Shown one piece after another: positions 24,155-34,659 of a stretch of DNA of 43,364 bases. The notes beneath the pieces are model-generated. The model had not been told where the DNA came from, did no database searches, and saw nothing but the letters and a program-made list of their open reading frames with translations. Source of the DNA: Thermofilales archaeon (GTDB lineage: Archaea > Thermoproteota > Thermoprotei > Thermofilales > Thermofilaceae); contig JAPWTS010000005.1 of NCBI GenBank assembly GCA_028275925.1, positions 1 to 43,364 on the forward strand, given 5' to 3'. The translations under genes and the position numbers were made by a program. How positions within the stretch are numbered: the first letter of the stretch is position 1; each line of letters opens with the position of its first letter.

Positions 24155-25435
24155 CTAGGCTCGCAGCCAGTAGCTTCTGATGTCGAAGTCCATCTGCCCG
24201 TTCAATTCGCTCTTCGTCAACCTGTCCCCCGACAGCACCTCGAGGACTACCGGGTAGAGCTCCCTCAGAGCCAGCTCCCTGAGGCTCGCTCCGCTCGAGA
24301 AGAGCTCTTCCACCGGGACGTACACGTCGATGATCTTCGACAGCCTAGCGTAGGTCTCCCTGTTCGCGGTCACCTTCACGACGGGGCTGACCACCGAGCC
24401 CACCGGCGTGCCCAACCCGGTCGTGAAGATCACGGCGTGAGCGCCGCCCGCAACCATCCCCGTTATCGCGAGCACGTCCTCGCCCGGGCCGTCCATGAAG
24501 TAGAGCCCGCCGCCCCTGGGCACCGGGTGCGCGTAGGGGAGCACGTCCGCCAGCTTGATCGCCGGGTCGAAGCCGGCTTTGAGGATGCTGCCGAGCGACT
24601 TCTCCGCCAGCGTGGAAATGCCGCTGGCTATGTTGCCCGGCGTCGGGTCGCTCTCACCCAGGTACTCCGCTAGAGCCTCCTTCAGCGCGTACACGGTCTC
24701 CAGCAACCTCCGCAGCTTCCGAGCCACGCTCTCGTCGGCGACCTTCCCCACGAGGTACTCCTCGGAGCCCAAGACCTCCGTAGTCTGCGAGAACACGACG
24801 CTGGCCCCGCTCCTAACCAGCTCGTCTACGACGTAGCCCACAGCCGGGTTCGCGAACAGGCCGGAGGTGGGGTCGGAGGCCCCATTCCCCACCCCTATCA
24901 CGAAGCGCGAGAGGGGGGCTTCGACCCTTTTAGCCGCTTGCGCCTCCTCGACCATCTCCCTCACGAACTTCCTCCCCAGCTCGACCGCCCTCTCGAACCC
25001 GTCGCCCGAGCCGCGGATCGGCTCCTGCACGTTCACCCACCGCACCCGCACGCCCCTCTTCACCAGCCTGTCGTAGAGCTTGAACGCGGCTAGGTTCTGC
25101 TCCTTGCTCTCGCCCGGCGCGAGGGGCCTCTTGCACAGCTGCCCGCAACCGAGGCTGACGAGGAGCACCCCGTGGACGTTGGGGTGGGACGCGACGCCCA
25201 GCAGCGCCCTGTACGCTACCTCAAGGTCGAAGCCGATGTGGCAGCAGCCGCTGTTGTGGCGGGCGAGGACGACGCGGTTCTCGCCGTTATCCCCCCACCG
25301 CTCTTCCTTGAACTCCTCCCAGATCAGCTCCGCCAGCCTGTTCACGCAGAGCGTTGTCGGCAGCACGAGCACGTGGTTCCGCGCCCCGTAAACCTTCCTC
25401 GACTCCCTGTAGTACGCTTTGACGGTGGGAGGCAC
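24155..25435 (-). CDS. UxaA-type dehydratase/lyase, large (C-terminal) subunit
   Basis: 426 residues equal to the C-terminal domain of D-galactarate/altronate dehydratases: VYGARNHVLVLPTTLCVN, ARHNSGCCHIGFD, HPNVHGVLLVSLGCGQLC, GNGASDPTSGLFANPAVGYVVDELV, SDPTPGNIASGISTLAEKSLGSILK, GLYFMDGPGEDVLAITGMVAGGAH and FTTGLGTPVGS. Several cysteines near the first domain could bind metal. Split two-gene versions include SuyB-type sulfolactate lyase and archaeal UxaA pairs; the substrate cannot be named from sequence. GTG at 25435 follows the stop of the SAF-subunit gene by one base. Last gene of the ABC-MtmB-SAF-UxaA array. Confidence 0.85.
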   Translation of the reverse strand: MPPTVKAYYRESRKVYGARNHVLVLPTTLCVNRLAELIWEEFKEERWGDNGENRVVLARHNSGCCHIGFDLEVAYRALLGVASHPNVHGVLLVSLGCGQLCKRPLAPGESKEQNLAAFKLYDRLVKRGVRVRWVNVQEPIRGSGDGFERAVELGRKFVREMVEEAQAAKRVEAPLSRFVIGVGNGASDPTSGLFANPAVGYVVDELVRSGASVVFSQTTEVLGSEEYLVGKVADESVARKLRRLLETVYALKEALAEYLGESDPTPGNIASGISTLAEKSLGSILKAGFDPAIKLADVLPYAHPVPRGGGLYFMDGPGEDVLAITGMVAGGAHAVIFTTGLGTPVGSVVSPVVKVTANRETYARLSKIIDVYVPVEELFSSGASLRELALRELYPVVLEVLSGDRLTKSELNGQMDFDIRSYWLRA

Positions 25436-25436
25436 G

Positions 25437-26033
25437 TCACCCCACCTCGACCCTAGCGAACTCGATGAGGCCGGCTCTCAGCAGGCGGTAGAAGTCCCTG
25501 ACCAGCCTCACGTAGCGCTCGTTCCGGCGCAGCCGCGGCGGCGGCTCGACGATGTTGCCCAGCCTCACCGTGCCGCCCTCCGCGATCGCGCTCGCCGCCA
25601 CGCCGACCCTAGCTCGGGGGGGCAGCGAGCGCAGCGCGGGGTGCAGGGGCTTGAGGTTCGCGCCGACCCGCAGCACCTCCCCCTTCTCAACCCTTACGGG
25701 AGACGTGCCGAGCACGAGGCCCTGCCTGACCATCTGCCGGAAGTCGTGGGTCGGGTCGAGCAGCACGTTGGTCACGTGGACCAGGTCCCCCTCCTCCACA
25801 ACGGTCACGGCGACCCCTATCACGTAGCCGAACTTGACCACCTCGCCCCCCTCCTCGATCCTCTCCAGAGCGACCTTGTGCCAAGCCGGCACGGGCACGC
25901 GCGGCTTCACCGTGCCGACGAAGCCCCTGCCCTCCTCGTACACCGGGTACTCCACGCCCTCCTCCAGGCGCGAGAGGGCCGTCCCCACGTTGTCCCTACC
26001 GCTGACCTTGTACACGAGCGCCGGCAAGCTCAC
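25437..26033 (-). CDS. UxaA-type dehydratase/lyase, small (SAF) subunit, enlarged
   Basis: 198 residues, about twice a lone SAF domain. The central part VPVPAWHKVALERIEEGGEVVKFGYVIGVAVTVVEEGDLVHVTN (about 48-91) is the UxaA/SuyA SAF motif, with the conserved HK and the final VH-x-x-N. An additional C-terminal region (about 95-198: RQGLVLGTSPVRVEKGEVLRVGANLKPL and a basic helical tail) is not part of the usual small subunit. GTG at 26033 with a TATA-like ATTAAAAGC at about 26053-26061, which overlaps the stop codon of the upstream mtmB-like gene, so an internal promoter is possible. Confidence 0.8.
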   Translation of the reverse strand: MSLPALVYKVSGRDNVGTALSRLEEGVEYPVYEEGRGFVGTVKPRVPVPAWHKVALERIEEGGEVVKFGYVIGVAVTVVEEGDLVHVTNVLLDPTHDFRQMVRQGLVLGTSPVRVEKGEVLRVGANLKPLHPALRSLPPRARVGVAASAIAEGGTVRLGNIVEPPPRLRRNERYVRLVRDFYRLLRAGLIEFARVEVG

Positions 26034-26056: not shown

Positions 26057-27436
26057 TTAATCGCTAGCGCCGCCCGCCCCGCGCTCCAGGTCCAAGCCCA
26101 TGTCCGAGAGCTCCCTCCTCACTTCGAGGTACGCCTCGAGCCACCACCGCGCGGGAACGCGCTTCCCGGCGTCGTAGAGCTCGGGGAAGGGCTTGCCGGG
26201 GTTCGGGTTGCGGAGGCTCGGCTCGTAGCGCTTGAGGAGGCTCTCGGCGAGCTCCACCGCGTCGCTCGGGTTCAGGCGCGCGGCCGCCGCCCCGACTTCC
26301 GCCATCAGCCTAGCTTCGAGGCCCGTGCCGTGCGGCCTCTCCCCGTTCGCCGGCGCGGGGCCGAGCAGGTGCAAACCGAACGCCGAGGCCACCAAAGCGT
26401 TGGCGGCGACCTCGTACAGCATCTCGACAACCCCGCCGCCGTTGGCCGGCCACACGTCCCCCACGAGCGGGATTCGGAGCCTCTCGCCCGTGAGGCCGAG
26501 GGCGGCTTCGACCCAGAGGCACTCCCTGCTGCTCGTCGCCTTCAGGTGTATGTGGTACGGGTGGATGAGGACGTAGGAGGCGCCGTAGGCCGCCAGCGAC
26601 AGCAGGGTCTCCGCTACCGCGCATATCGCCGAGCCGGCCGCCCCCCGGGCGAAACCCCCGACCACCGGGTCGACGAGCGCCGCGTTGTGGACGCCGTACG
26701 CGAGCCCCACGTGGGCTTTGACGAGCTGGCCCCGGTCCACCTTCATCTCGTTGAGCACGGGGACCAGCTGCGCGTCGCTCCTCCTCAGCAGGCCCAGCGC
26801 CATCGCCGCCAGGCTCCCCACGGCCGTGACGCTGCTCTCGCAGGCGAGGAGGTGCATCCCCGGCCTCCCGGCTTCCTCGACCGCCTCCCGCAGCAGCCTG
26901 AGCTCAGCGACCGTCGCCTCCGCCTCGCTCGGCGCCCCCCTCTGCACGCTGAGCCCGCTCACGCTCGCCAGGCTCCCGTGGTCGAGCGCGTCGACGAGCG
27001 GCTCCAGCGCGTAGCTCAGGGCGCTCTCCTTGAAGATCTCGGGGGGCGTGGGCGTGCCGGCGTACCCGCCGAAGACCAGCGGCCTGGTCCCAGAGCCGGG
27101 GCGGCGCGGCTCGAGCACCCGGGCGTCCCTGCCCTCGCCGACGAGGACGCGGCTCTTCGCCGACGCCAGAGCGCTCTTCAGCTCCTCCTCGCCGAGCTGC
27201 ACCCGCCTACCCTCGTCGACCAGGTAGACCCCGACCTCAAGCGCCAGCTGGAAGCCGGCTTCGAACACGTCCTTCGCGAGGGACGGGTCGTGGGGGGCGA
27301 TCGAGCCGGCTTCGTAGCGCACGCCGTGCTCCCTCTCGAGCTCGGCCACCTTCCTCGAGAGGAGGAGGTCGAAGGCTCGCTGCTCCATGTAGGCTCCTTC
27401 GCGCGCCCTGCCCTCGAGCGCGAGGGGCCCCGGCAT
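26057..27436 (-). CDS. MtmB-family methyltransferase homolog lacking pyrrolysine
   Basis: 459 residues, matching the 458 of MtmB, the monomethylamine:corrinoid methyltransferase with a TIM-barrel fold. Collinear matches recalled from the MtmB sequence: DVFEAGFQLALEVGVYLVDE, LVFGGYAGTPTPPEIF, EAGRPGM (189-194), LNEMKVD (228-234), VGGFARG, TSSRECLW and TGLEARLMAEVGAA. Where MtmB has pyrrolysine 202 (a UAG codon) this gene has Leu197 (CTC); the nearby Glu200 is kept. There is no internal TAG. The frame is open far upstream, but ATG 27436 fits the family N-terminus. No corrinoid protein, RamA or pylTSBCD gene is in the window. The reaction is unknown; methyl transfer to a corrinoid is only one possibility. 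Confidence 0.82.
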   Translation of the reverse strand: MPGPLALEGRAREGAYMEQRAFDLLLSRKVAELEREHGVRYEAGSIAPHDPSLAKDVFEAGFQLALEVGVYLVDEGRRVQLGEEELKSALASAKSRVLVGEGRDARVLEPRRPGSGTRPLVFGGYAGTPTPPEIFKESALSYALEPLVDALDHGSLASVSGLSVQRGAPSEAEATVAELRLLREAVEEAGRPGMHLLACESSVTAVGSLAAMALGLLRRSDAQLVPVLNEMKVDRGQLVKAHVGLAYGVHNAALVDPVVGGFARGAAGSAICAVAETLLSLAAYGASYVLIHPYHIHLKATSSRECLWVEAALGLTGERLRIPLVGDVWPANGGGVVEMLYEVAANALVASAFGLHLLGPAPANGERPHGTGLEARLMAEVGAAAARLNPSDAVELAESLLKRYEPSLRNPNPGKPFPELYDAGKRVPARWWLEAYLEVRRELSDMGLDLERGAGGASD

Positions 27437-27462: not shown

Positions 27463-29730
27463 TCAACCTTGCGGTCGCGCGCTCAGGCGCTTCAGCTCCG
27501 CGACCAGCCAGCCCACGCCGTACGCGCCGAAGGGGCTGGGCGGCGTCGTAGCCAGAGCCGCCACCCTCCAGGCCGCGTCCCTGCTGGCCACGGCCGAGGG
27601 CTCGATCAGGTAGACCCTGTTCGGCGTAGCGACGACGAGCAGCCCGTCGAGGGAGAGCAGACCGCTCGTCGGCACTTCCACCTCGACCCTGCCGTCCTCG
27701 CACTCCATGACGACGTTGACCGCGAGCGCGCGGCGCCCCATGCCGAGCGGGTAGGCGTCGACGAGCTTCGCCAGCGCCAGCCCGTGCTCCTTCGCCAGGT
27801 GCCTAGCGACGGCGAGCTTCGACTCCTCGTCGAGGAGCGTCCAATCCTCGACGACAAGCGGGTCATCGGGGTCCTTGTACAGGAGGAGCACCTTGGGGTT
27901 GGTGAGCGGGAAGGGTAGGCGGGCGCGCAGCTCGCCCACCACGAGGCCGTCCACCTCCGCCTCGAGCCAAGCCCCCCTGTCCCTCACCTTCAGCCTCCTC
28001 GCGTCGACCACTTTGAGCGGTGGAGGCGGGGGCGGCCTCTCGGCGAGGCCTCCCCTCGCCTCCCCCAGCACGCGCCCCTCGCTCATCAGGATCACGCGGT
28101 TCACGAACTTGTTCAGCGTCGGCCTGTGGGATATCGCGATCACCGTCGTGCCCCTGAGGTAGCCGAGAACCCTCTCCATCAGCACCTCCTCGAGCTCGAC
28201 GTGCACGTTGCTCGTGGCCTCGTCGAGGATGAGGACCTTCGGCTTCAGCACGAGGGCTCGAGCCAGGCACACCAGCTGCCGCTGCCCGCCCGACAGAGCC
28301 TTGCCCTGCTCCCCCACGTCGCTGTCGTAGGCCAGCGGGAGCTCAACGATGAAGCGGTGGGCCCCGCAGAGCCAGGCCGCGTACAGGACCGCCAGGGGGT
28401 CGGGGCTGTCGGCGCCGTAGGCGATGTTGTACGCGACGCTGCCCGGCAGGAGCGTGGGCTCCTGCGGCACAAGGATCACCTGGCCCCTCAGGCTCGACAT
28501 CTTCACCTTCCTTAAGTCCACGCCGTCCAGCAGCACCGCCCCCCGCGTCGGGTCGAAGAGCCTGACCAGGAGCCTGACCAGGGTGGTTTTGCCGGAGCCG
28601 TTGGGGCCGACGATGCCGACCGCCTCGCCCGGCTCCACGCGCAGGTTCGCCCCCCTCAGCACCGGCCTCCCGGGCGTGTACTCGAACCACACGTCCCTGA
28701 CTTCCACCCCGCCCTTGACCTCCAGCTCGACCGCGTCCGGCGCCTCCACCACCCTCGGCCTCGCCTCCAGCAGCTCCGCGAGCTTCTCGTACGCCGCCTC
28801 GGCCTCCGCCAGCTCCGGTATGATGCCGGCGATCGCCCTCACCGGCCCGTAGACCTGCCACACGTACGCTAGGAACGCTGTGAGCGTGCCCAGCGTCAGC
28901 TCGCCCCTCGCCACCATGAGGCCGCCGGCGTACAGGACCCCCACCGAGGCTAAGCTGAGCAGCAGGTTGAGCCACGGGATCACCTTGAGGCTGTAGCGCG
29001 CCGCCTCCATCTCCGCCTCGAAAACCTCGCCCGCCATCGCGTCGAACCGCTCCTTCTCGGCCCGCTCCTTCCCCGTCAGCTTCACGAGGAGGATGGCGTT
29101 GAAGAGCGAGGTCGCGTACGCCGACAGCCTGCTCACCCTGCTCCACCGCTTCGCGAACAGCGTCCGCACGCGCGGCTGGTACCTCAGCAGGCCGTACACG
29201 TAGAGCGGCAGGGGGGCCAGGAGGATGAGCGAGAGCTCCCAGTTGAGCGCGAAAACGATCGCCATCATCGCCGCCAGCTGGAGGGAGCTGAGGATCACCG
29301 TCTGGAAGCTGGAGACTATGAAGCGCTGCACCCGGTCCACGTAGCCGTAGAGGCGCGCGACGACGTCGCCGACCTGCGCCCCCTCGTACAGCTCCGCGCC
29401 CAGCTCCACAGCCTTCGCGAAAACCCTCGAGCGCAGTTCGAGCGCGACGCGCCCGCTCAGCAGGCTCTGGCAGTAGCCCTGGGCCGCGGACGCGGCCGTC
29501 GACAGCGCGTAGAGCGCCGCCAGCGCGCCGGAGTAAAGGAGGATGGCGCGCGCGTCGCCGGCCAAGATCCCCCGGTCGACCACAGCCCTCGTGAGCAGGG
29601 GCGGCAGCACCCCCAGGGCCGTCGCAGCGAGGGAGACCGCGAGGGTTGCGGCGAGCAAGCGCGGGTGGGAGAACAGGAGCGAGTAGAGCTTGAGAACCCT
29701 GTAGCGCTCCGAGAGCCTTAAGCGAACCAC
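27463..29730 (-). CDS. ABC exporter (TMD-NBD) fused to a DUF1854-like domain
   Basis: About 755 residues. Six-helix exporter-type membrane domain (roughly 20-310), nucleotide-binding domain with Walker A GPNGSGKTT near 375-383, Q-loop PQEPT, signature LSGGQRQ near 480, Walker B LILDEATS and switch His in ISHRP; then a proline linker and a C-terminal domain of about 165 residues (FPLTNPKVLLLYKDPDDPLVVEDWTLLDEES...VECED-type strands) that resembles DUF1854, a domain linked with cyanophycin-associated ABC transporters. Half-transporter, so it should dimerise. TTTTTTAG at 29753-29760 predicts a leaderless GTG at 29730; TTG 29739 is the longer choice. 26 bp upstream of the mtmB-like gene. Confidence 0.85.
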   Translation of the reverse strand: MVRLRLSERYRVLKLYSLLFSHPRLLAATLAVSLAATALGVLPPLLTRAVVDRGILAGDARAILLYSGALAALYALSTAASAAQGYCQSLLSGRVALELRSRVFAKAVELGAELYEGAQVGDVVARLYGYVDRVQRFIVSSFQTVILSSLQLAAMMAIVFALNWELSLILLAPLPLYVYGLLRYQPRVRTLFAKRWSRVSRLSAYATSLFNAILLVKLTGKERAEKERFDAMAGEVFEAEMEAARYSLKVIPWLNLLLSLASVGVLYAGGLMVARGELTLGTLTAFLAYVWQVYGPVRAIAGIIPELAEAEAAYEKLAELLEARPRVVEAPDAVELEVKGGVEVRDVWFEYTPGRPVLRGANLRVEPGEAVGIVGPNGSGKTTLVRLLVRLFDPTRGAVLLDGVDLRKVKMSSLRGQVILVPQEPTLLPGSVAYNIAYGADSPDPLAVLYAAWLCGAHRFIVELPLAYDSDVGEQGKALSGGQRQLVCLARALVLKPKVLILDEATSNVHVELEEVLMERVLGYLRGTTVIAISHRPTLNKFVNRVILMSEGRVLGEARGGLAERPPPPPPLKVVDARRLKVRDRGAWLEAEVDGLVVGELRARLPFPLTNPKVLLLYKDPDDPLVVEDWTLLDEESKLAVARHLAKEHGLALAKLVDAYPLGMGRRALAVNVVMECEDGRVEVEVPTSGLLSLDGLLVVATPNRVYLIEPSAVASRDAAWRVAALATTPPSPFGAYGVGWLVAELKRLSARPQG

Positions 29731-29807
29731 GCGGCTCAAAGTGGAAGGGTAGCTAAAAAACTTTGCTATCTTACCAGCTTAAGTTAAGTAGCACTTGCGG
29801 AGCCGAG

Positions 29808-29880: not shown

Positions 29881-32979
<3,099 letters not shown>

Positions 32980-33023
32980 CGGTGCGAGCCCGATTCGCGT
33001 CGCCGCCGAACTGTGCGCGGCGC
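32980..33023 (-). other. 23S processing stem, 5' arm (bulge-helix-bulge)
   Basis: 5' partner of 29837-29880. The 5' bulge is RNA GAA at 32996-32994. Cutting after the second bulge nucleotide on each side would excise a pre-23S from 32994 to 29861. Confidence 0.88.
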
Positions 33024-33112
33024 TCACAGCGACCGGAGCCCCCTTAGCTCCGGCCGCTCAGCCCTTCGCCCGGGAGGCCTAGCCTCCCGAGCTGCATCCC
33101 GATAAGCGTGAG
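33024..33112 (-). other. 16S-23S internal spacer without tRNA
   Basis: 89 bp between the two processing stems. Holds two hairpins, CGGAGC...GCTCCG (33035-33052 region) and CGGGAGG-CCTAG-CCTCCCG (33070-33088). No tRNA-Ala is present, as is usual in Thermoproteota and unlike Euryarchaeota. Confidence 0.8.
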
Positions 33113-33142
33113 GAGCCCGGCGCGGTGCCCGGGGTTTGGAAC
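33113..33142 (-). other. 16S processing stem, 3' arm
   Basis: 33113-33133 pairs with 34686-34706 (21 bp, one G-U) and GTTCC at 33138-33142 pairs with 34681-34685. RNA AAAC is unpaired between the two helices on this arm, giving a relaxed bulge-helix-bulge shape rather than the strict 3-4-3 geometry seen for 23S. Confidence 0.7.
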
Positions 33143-33147
33143 TTGGA

Positions 33148-34659
<1,512 letters not shown>

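Follow-up and report, generated by a model that had tools for sequence, protein, structure and literature searches.

Here we describe a gene from a Thermofilaceae archaeon, carried on a stretch of 43,364 nucleotides (positions 1 to 43,364 of contig JAPWTS010000005.1, assembly GCA_028275925.1; this whole stretch is hereafter the window), that encodes a relative of the monomethylamine methyltransferase MtmB in which leucine stands in the place of pyrrolysine (Pyl, encoded by TAG). Our best reading, which we hold to be reasonably likely on its sequence and predicted structure, is that the protein would act as a pyrrolysine-independent, corrinoid-dependent methyltransferase (MT1) of the MtmB fold on a methylated cationic compound. 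Sequence and model establish that the protein has this fold, that Pyl and the residues in contact with it have been lost, that the gene is under purifying selection and that partner genes are present. The gene (26060-27436) lies on the minus strand, from an ATG at 27436 that aligns with the starts of its orthologues to a stop codon at 26057-26059; a preliminary description of this DNA had placed it correctly at 26057-27436, with 459 amino acids, but left the strand unstated. The forward-strand reading of 26057-27436 was rejected as a frame open by chance.

The protein is a true MtmB-family member with an MtmB-type TIM barrel. The PF05369 (MtmB) profile matches residues 10-448 with an E-value of 1.4e-82 (278 bits; cut-off 25) and is covered at positions 9-450 of 450, a full-length family match; phmmer against Methanosarcina barkeri MtmB (1L2Q/1TV2) gives 2e-57 across 442 residues. 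An AlphaFold2 model, built with 36 window and locus sequences as input, reaches a pLDDT of 95.1 and a pTM of 0.94, and Foldseek aligns it to 1tv2, 1nth and 1l2q with a TM score of 0.94, a root-mean-square deviation of 1.6 A and 31% identity. The next structural family is MttB/MtgB at 0.52-0.58, whereas generic TIM barrels score 0.3-0.4, which rules out a generic TIM-barrel identity; the whole-length homology first proposed from the letters alone is thereby borne out.

In a maximum-likelihood tree the window protein falls inside a clade of 36 sequences, here called clade A (support 100/100), which comprises a subgroup of 14 Thermofilaceae sequences (100/100) and another of 22 from Methanosuratincola/Methanomethyliaceae and Desulfurococcales-like metagenome-assembled genomes (MAGs; 98/97). 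It shares 40-46% identity with the Methanosuratincola-type A copies. The Methanosuratincola-type and Desulfurococcales-like genomes carry a tandem second copy, clade B (22 sequences, 100/100), that was not found in Thermofilaceae, and Pyl-containing MtmB—M. barkeri together with a pair of TAG-bearing genes from a single methanogen genus—branches apart from both clades. PF05369 is carried by 47 of the 398 genomes of the sampled phylum, mostly MAGs (the window's own genome is 95% complete), and by 14 of the 17 genomes of the window's family; since complete Thermofilum-type (g7) genomes are among these, the gene is old and widely kept in Thermofilaceae. Against genus and family relatives its dN/dS is about 0.2, indicating purifying selection and arguing for function. 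Outside these clades, other Thermoproteota families hold more Pyl-free MtmB paralogues (loci L173-L185), with His, Leu, Ile or Met at the Pyl position and, in most cases, an adjoining corrinoid gene. An apparent A-B gene fusion in Methanosuratincola petrocarbonis V4 (L080:4731-7559; also L050) was discarded, the two genes being joined by a run of N across an assembly gap.

Pyl202 of M. barkeri MtmB aligns with Leu197 (codon CTC), and the flanking GRPGM motif and Glu200, the counterpart of Glu205, are kept, as the preliminary description had it; the separate clade that it called for is also found, with leucine fixed in the Thermofilaceae members. The Pyl column holds Leu in all 14 Thermofilaceae sequences and Leu or Ile in all 22 methanogen-type A copies, and no TAG occurs at this site in any of the 36 clade-A sequences. 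Among the aligned sequences Pyl is confined to the Pyl clade: TAG codons flagged as possible alleles in near relatives proved to be terminal stops, except in that clade (L186, L188). A TAG at the site in near relatives and a match no better than to generic TIM barrels were the two observations that could have overturned the assignment, and neither was made. Four further substitutions are fixed in 36/36 clade-A sequences—Glu229 to Leu, Glu259 to Leu, Gln333 to Asp and Tyr335 to Trp in M. barkeri numbering—at positions that we take to be the Pyl contacts of the 1L2Q structure. Without Pyl and without these residues, the window protein would not, by its sequence, be a Pyl-dependent MtmB proper. 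In turn, Glu205, His300 and Glu310 of MtmB are kept throughout clade A, and Asp256, His292 and Asp327 (window numbering) are newly invariant. The changed and invariant residues fall at or just past strands E195-198, E250-255, E288-291 and E324-327 of the model's secondary structure, at the catalytic end of the barrel. In clade B the Pyl site instead reads Asn-Asp, and Glu205 is missing. The residue changes of clade A may suit a substrate whose methyl group needs no Pyl adduct, such as an amine that is quaternary or protonated, or a methyl compound activated in some other way.

Pyl-free members of the family are not new as such: homologues of this kind were mentioned in 2010, in a paper that named Thermofilum for Pyl-free MttB (PMC2933860), and in 2026 the Pyl-free MtmB homologue MtqB of Methanococcoides methylutens Q3c was reported to demethylate tetramethylammonium and choline, with low monomethylamine activity (PMC13044021). 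Given this mention and this assay, clade A is a new branch of a class already known, and the new enzyme activity foreseen in the preliminary description is a putative one; in the accompanying tree of 1,061 MtmBs, the remaining Pyl-free members have no assigned function (PMC13044021). MtqB resembles the window protein in being Pyl-free and corrinoid-dependent, as we propose for the latter, but differs in its adjacent corrinoid gene, its Met/Cys/aromatic pocket and its methanogen host (PMC13044021). M. barkeri MtmB (1L2Q/1NTH/1TV2) shares the full-length fold, GRPGM, Glu205, His300, Glu310 and the family of the corrinoid partner; it has the Pyl and the contact residues that the window protein lacks, and the host of the latter is not known as a methanogen. 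The A copy of the Methanosuratincola tandem belongs to the window protein's own clade but, unlike the window gene, is paired with B and accompanied by an upstream corrinoid gene and a PnrA/BMP-type ABC importer. The MttB superfamily (MtgB, MtpB and others) is comparable in that its Pyl-free members, too, act with corrinoid proteins, on methylated amines of other kinds, but it is a separate Pfam family with a more distant structure. What this analysis adds is clade A itself, its fixed site changes, the shared ancestry of the Thermofilaceae and Methanosuratincola proteins, the corrinoid genes around them, and the scattering of the parts over the window's own genome.

The preliminary description saw no nearby corrinoid protein; this holds for the window but not for most relatives or for the genome, and a corrinoid-free setting is not supported. 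A gene for a B12-binding protein (PF02607 and PF02310) lies directly upstream of the clade-A gene in 6/7 Thermofilum-type loci and in 19/20 methanogen and Desulfurococcales loci, the twentieth being truncated where its contig ends. The A-B pair is accompanied by a PnrA/BMP-type ABC importer in 18 of 20 loci (the remaining two are truncated), by RACo in four and by an MtbA-like URO-D protein in three; in the conserved cluster (L062-L081, e.g. L065:8303-16362) the corrinoid protein and tandem MtmB A and B are convergent with the importer. In the window's own genome, the search for partners that had been suggested returned a single detected corrinoid protein (contig C15, with DxHxxG), a RACo gene beside it that is split by a contig end over C15/C132, and an MtbA-like URO-D protein with an HxC...C motif (contig C139) that is related to the cluster copies; URO-D-family matches number nine in total. 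This genome also has two MttB-family genes with no in-frame TAG (G000:C98:8802-10109 and G000:C27:18362-19720), and MtbB was not found in it. PylB was above the cut-off in none of the 17 Thermofilaceae genomes; PylS and tRNAPyl were not searched for. The C15 corrinoid protein clusters with those beside MtmB-A in Thermofilum-type genomes rather than with those beside MttB, at moderate SH-aLRT values of 84-92.

Several side observations concern these partner families. The URO-D family is expanded to 8-13 members per genome in the window's own genome and in genera g1, g4, g5 and g6, against 0-1 in Thermofilum-type genomes, with one corrinoid protein detected. In Thermofilum-type genomes an MttB-family gene adjoins a second corrinoid protein (L149-L152), and in one such genome that lacks URO-D proteins RACo has an amidohydrolase gene next to it (L155:6550-7719). 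Meth_synt_2 was considered as a methyl acceptor and set aside, its matches in Thermofilaceae being mostly weak.

In the mechanism that we propose, the substrate would be a small methylated molecule, most likely a positively charged methylated amine (quaternary or protonated), seated at the top of the TIM barrel between the invariant residues Glu200, Asp256, His292, His295, Asp327 and Trp329. Its methyl group would be held over the Co(I) of the B12-binding protein and taken up directly, with no Pyl adduct; the C15 protein would be the partner in this genome, and the adjacent RACo would reduce it again. The zinc-type, MtbA-like URO-D protein may then hand the methyl group on to a thiol, in the service of salvage or biosynthesis and not of methane formation. 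Some points weigh against this proposal. The window contains no corrinoid gene that we could find, and in its genus, as in two sister genera, the corrinoid gene is non-adjacent. The C15 protein is a presumptive cognate partner, chosen by elimination and moderately supported by the tree. It has, besides, two MttB-like and as many as nine URO-D-family proteins to serve, and the Thermofilum-type genomes mostly lack URO-D proteins as methyl acceptor. The substrate class, finally, is suggested by residue types and by the example of MtqB.

Monomethylamine itself is the first alternative to weigh: clade A, alone or with B, may be a true Pyl-independent monomethylamine methyltransferase whose activity the window protein retains. 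M. petrocarbonis LWZ-6 is reported to be methanogenic on methanol and on monomethylamine, and not on di- or trimethylamine, betaine or methanethiol (PMC12244365), and in the Methanosuratincola genomes searched the A+B pair are the only MtmB-family genes, with no TAG; PylB was not found in these genomes, TAG-bearing relatives serving as positive controls, and neither were MttB or MtbB. Methanomethylicia MAGs have been listed with mtmB and mtbC-type corrinoid genes, with no remark on Pyl in the part of that source used here (PMC10033731). Taken together, the LWZ-6 phenotype and the gene content of the genus single out A/B as the obvious candidate for using monomethylamine without Pyl, and MtqB, also Pyl-free, has some activity of this kind (PMC13044021). 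This falls short of proof, as the genome evidence comes from the Methanosuratincola genomes searched, and monomethylamine use by LWZ-6 could depend on other genes. The importer beside the A-B pair suggests another or larger substrate; Pyl is thought essential for monomethylamine activation; and the Thermofilaceae have no B copy and are not known to be methanogens. We regard this alternative as unlikely, and place slightly less weight still on a version in which clade A and, in Methanosuratincola, tandem B demethylate monomethylamine through an Asp/His site that substitutes for the Pyl chemistry and the Thermofilaceae protein is a non-methanogenic relative.

The residues that set clade A apart allow another chemistry, that of a metal-dependent O- or S-methyl demethylase in which the HPxH pair and Asp/Glu bind a leaving-group-activating zinc, as in MtaB. 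The invariant H292-P-x-H295, Asp256, Asp327 and Glu200 are absent as a set from Pyl-MtmB and from clade B; however, His295 and Glu200 also occur in Pyl-MtmB, which needs no metal, and clade A has no invariant Cys ligand, leaving this explanation with a slim chance.

The neighbouring genes (Table 1) offer a further alternative, specific to the window's genus, in which the MtmB-like protein and the downstream UxaA-type dehydratase act on one methylated sugar-acid-like compound. The UxaA N-terminal subunit gene begins 23 bp downstream on the same strand, the gaps are short and the order is kept across three genera; the two genes probably form an operon, with a putative functional link. The conserved UxaA and ABC neighbours anticipated in the preliminary description are indeed kept in the window's genus and two sister genera, but only there, and within a syntenic block of about 15 kb that also takes in proteasome, agmatinase and NadE genes. 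Because the entire block is syntenic, these neighbours are weak functional evidence, and we discounted UxaA as a clue; the pair is moreover non-adjacent in Thermofilum-type genomes and methanogens, so a shared substrate seems distinctly improbable. The ABC exporter is a neighbour whose membership in the same system is putative. Just upstream of the exporter and the MtmB-like gene is a 16S-23S rRNA operon (29884-34659, minus strand), and the open reading frames listed across it are spurious.

Table 1. Positions in the window of the MtmB-like gene, its key residues and its neighbours
Feature	Position	Strand	Basis
Pyrrolysine-free MtmB-family protein, clade A, 459 aa	26060..27436	-	PF05369 278 bits; 1L2Q E 2e-57; model TM 0.94 to MtmB
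Codon CTC, Leu197, at pyrrolysine-202 position of M. barkeri MtmB	26846..26848	-	codon listing and alignment column counts
Glu200 (MtmB Glu205)	26837..26839	-	invariant in clade A and Pyl-MtmB
UxaA/GarD-type N-terminal (SAF-like) subunit	25440..26033	-	weak match to altronate hydrolase/galactarate dehydratase N-domains; no Pfam match
UxaA/GarD-type C-terminal subunit, D-galactarate/altronate dehydratase family	24158..25435	-	PF20629 217 bits, PF04295; 6u7l E 1e-33
MsbA-like ABC exporter, directly upstream of MtmB-like gene	27466..29739	-	PF00664 and PF00005

A vestigial or regulatory, non-catalytic protein would fit the loss of Pyl and its contacts and of the adjacent corrinoid gene, but with a dN/dS of about 0.2, active-site residues invariant throughout clade A and the corrinoid gene adjacent in relatives, we give this very little credence.

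The usual explanation for the existence of pyrrolysine is the difficulty of demethylating methylamines. An MtmB branch that is coherent and Pyl-free, with a rebuilt pocket and with partners in non-methanogens as well as methanogens, lets this rationale be tested; in a cultured methanogen genus, the genomes searched hold Pyl-free MtmB copies only, yet monomethylamine use is reported. The finding also suggests a corrinoid methyl-transfer system in hyperthermophilic archaea for which metabolism of this kind has been little recognised.
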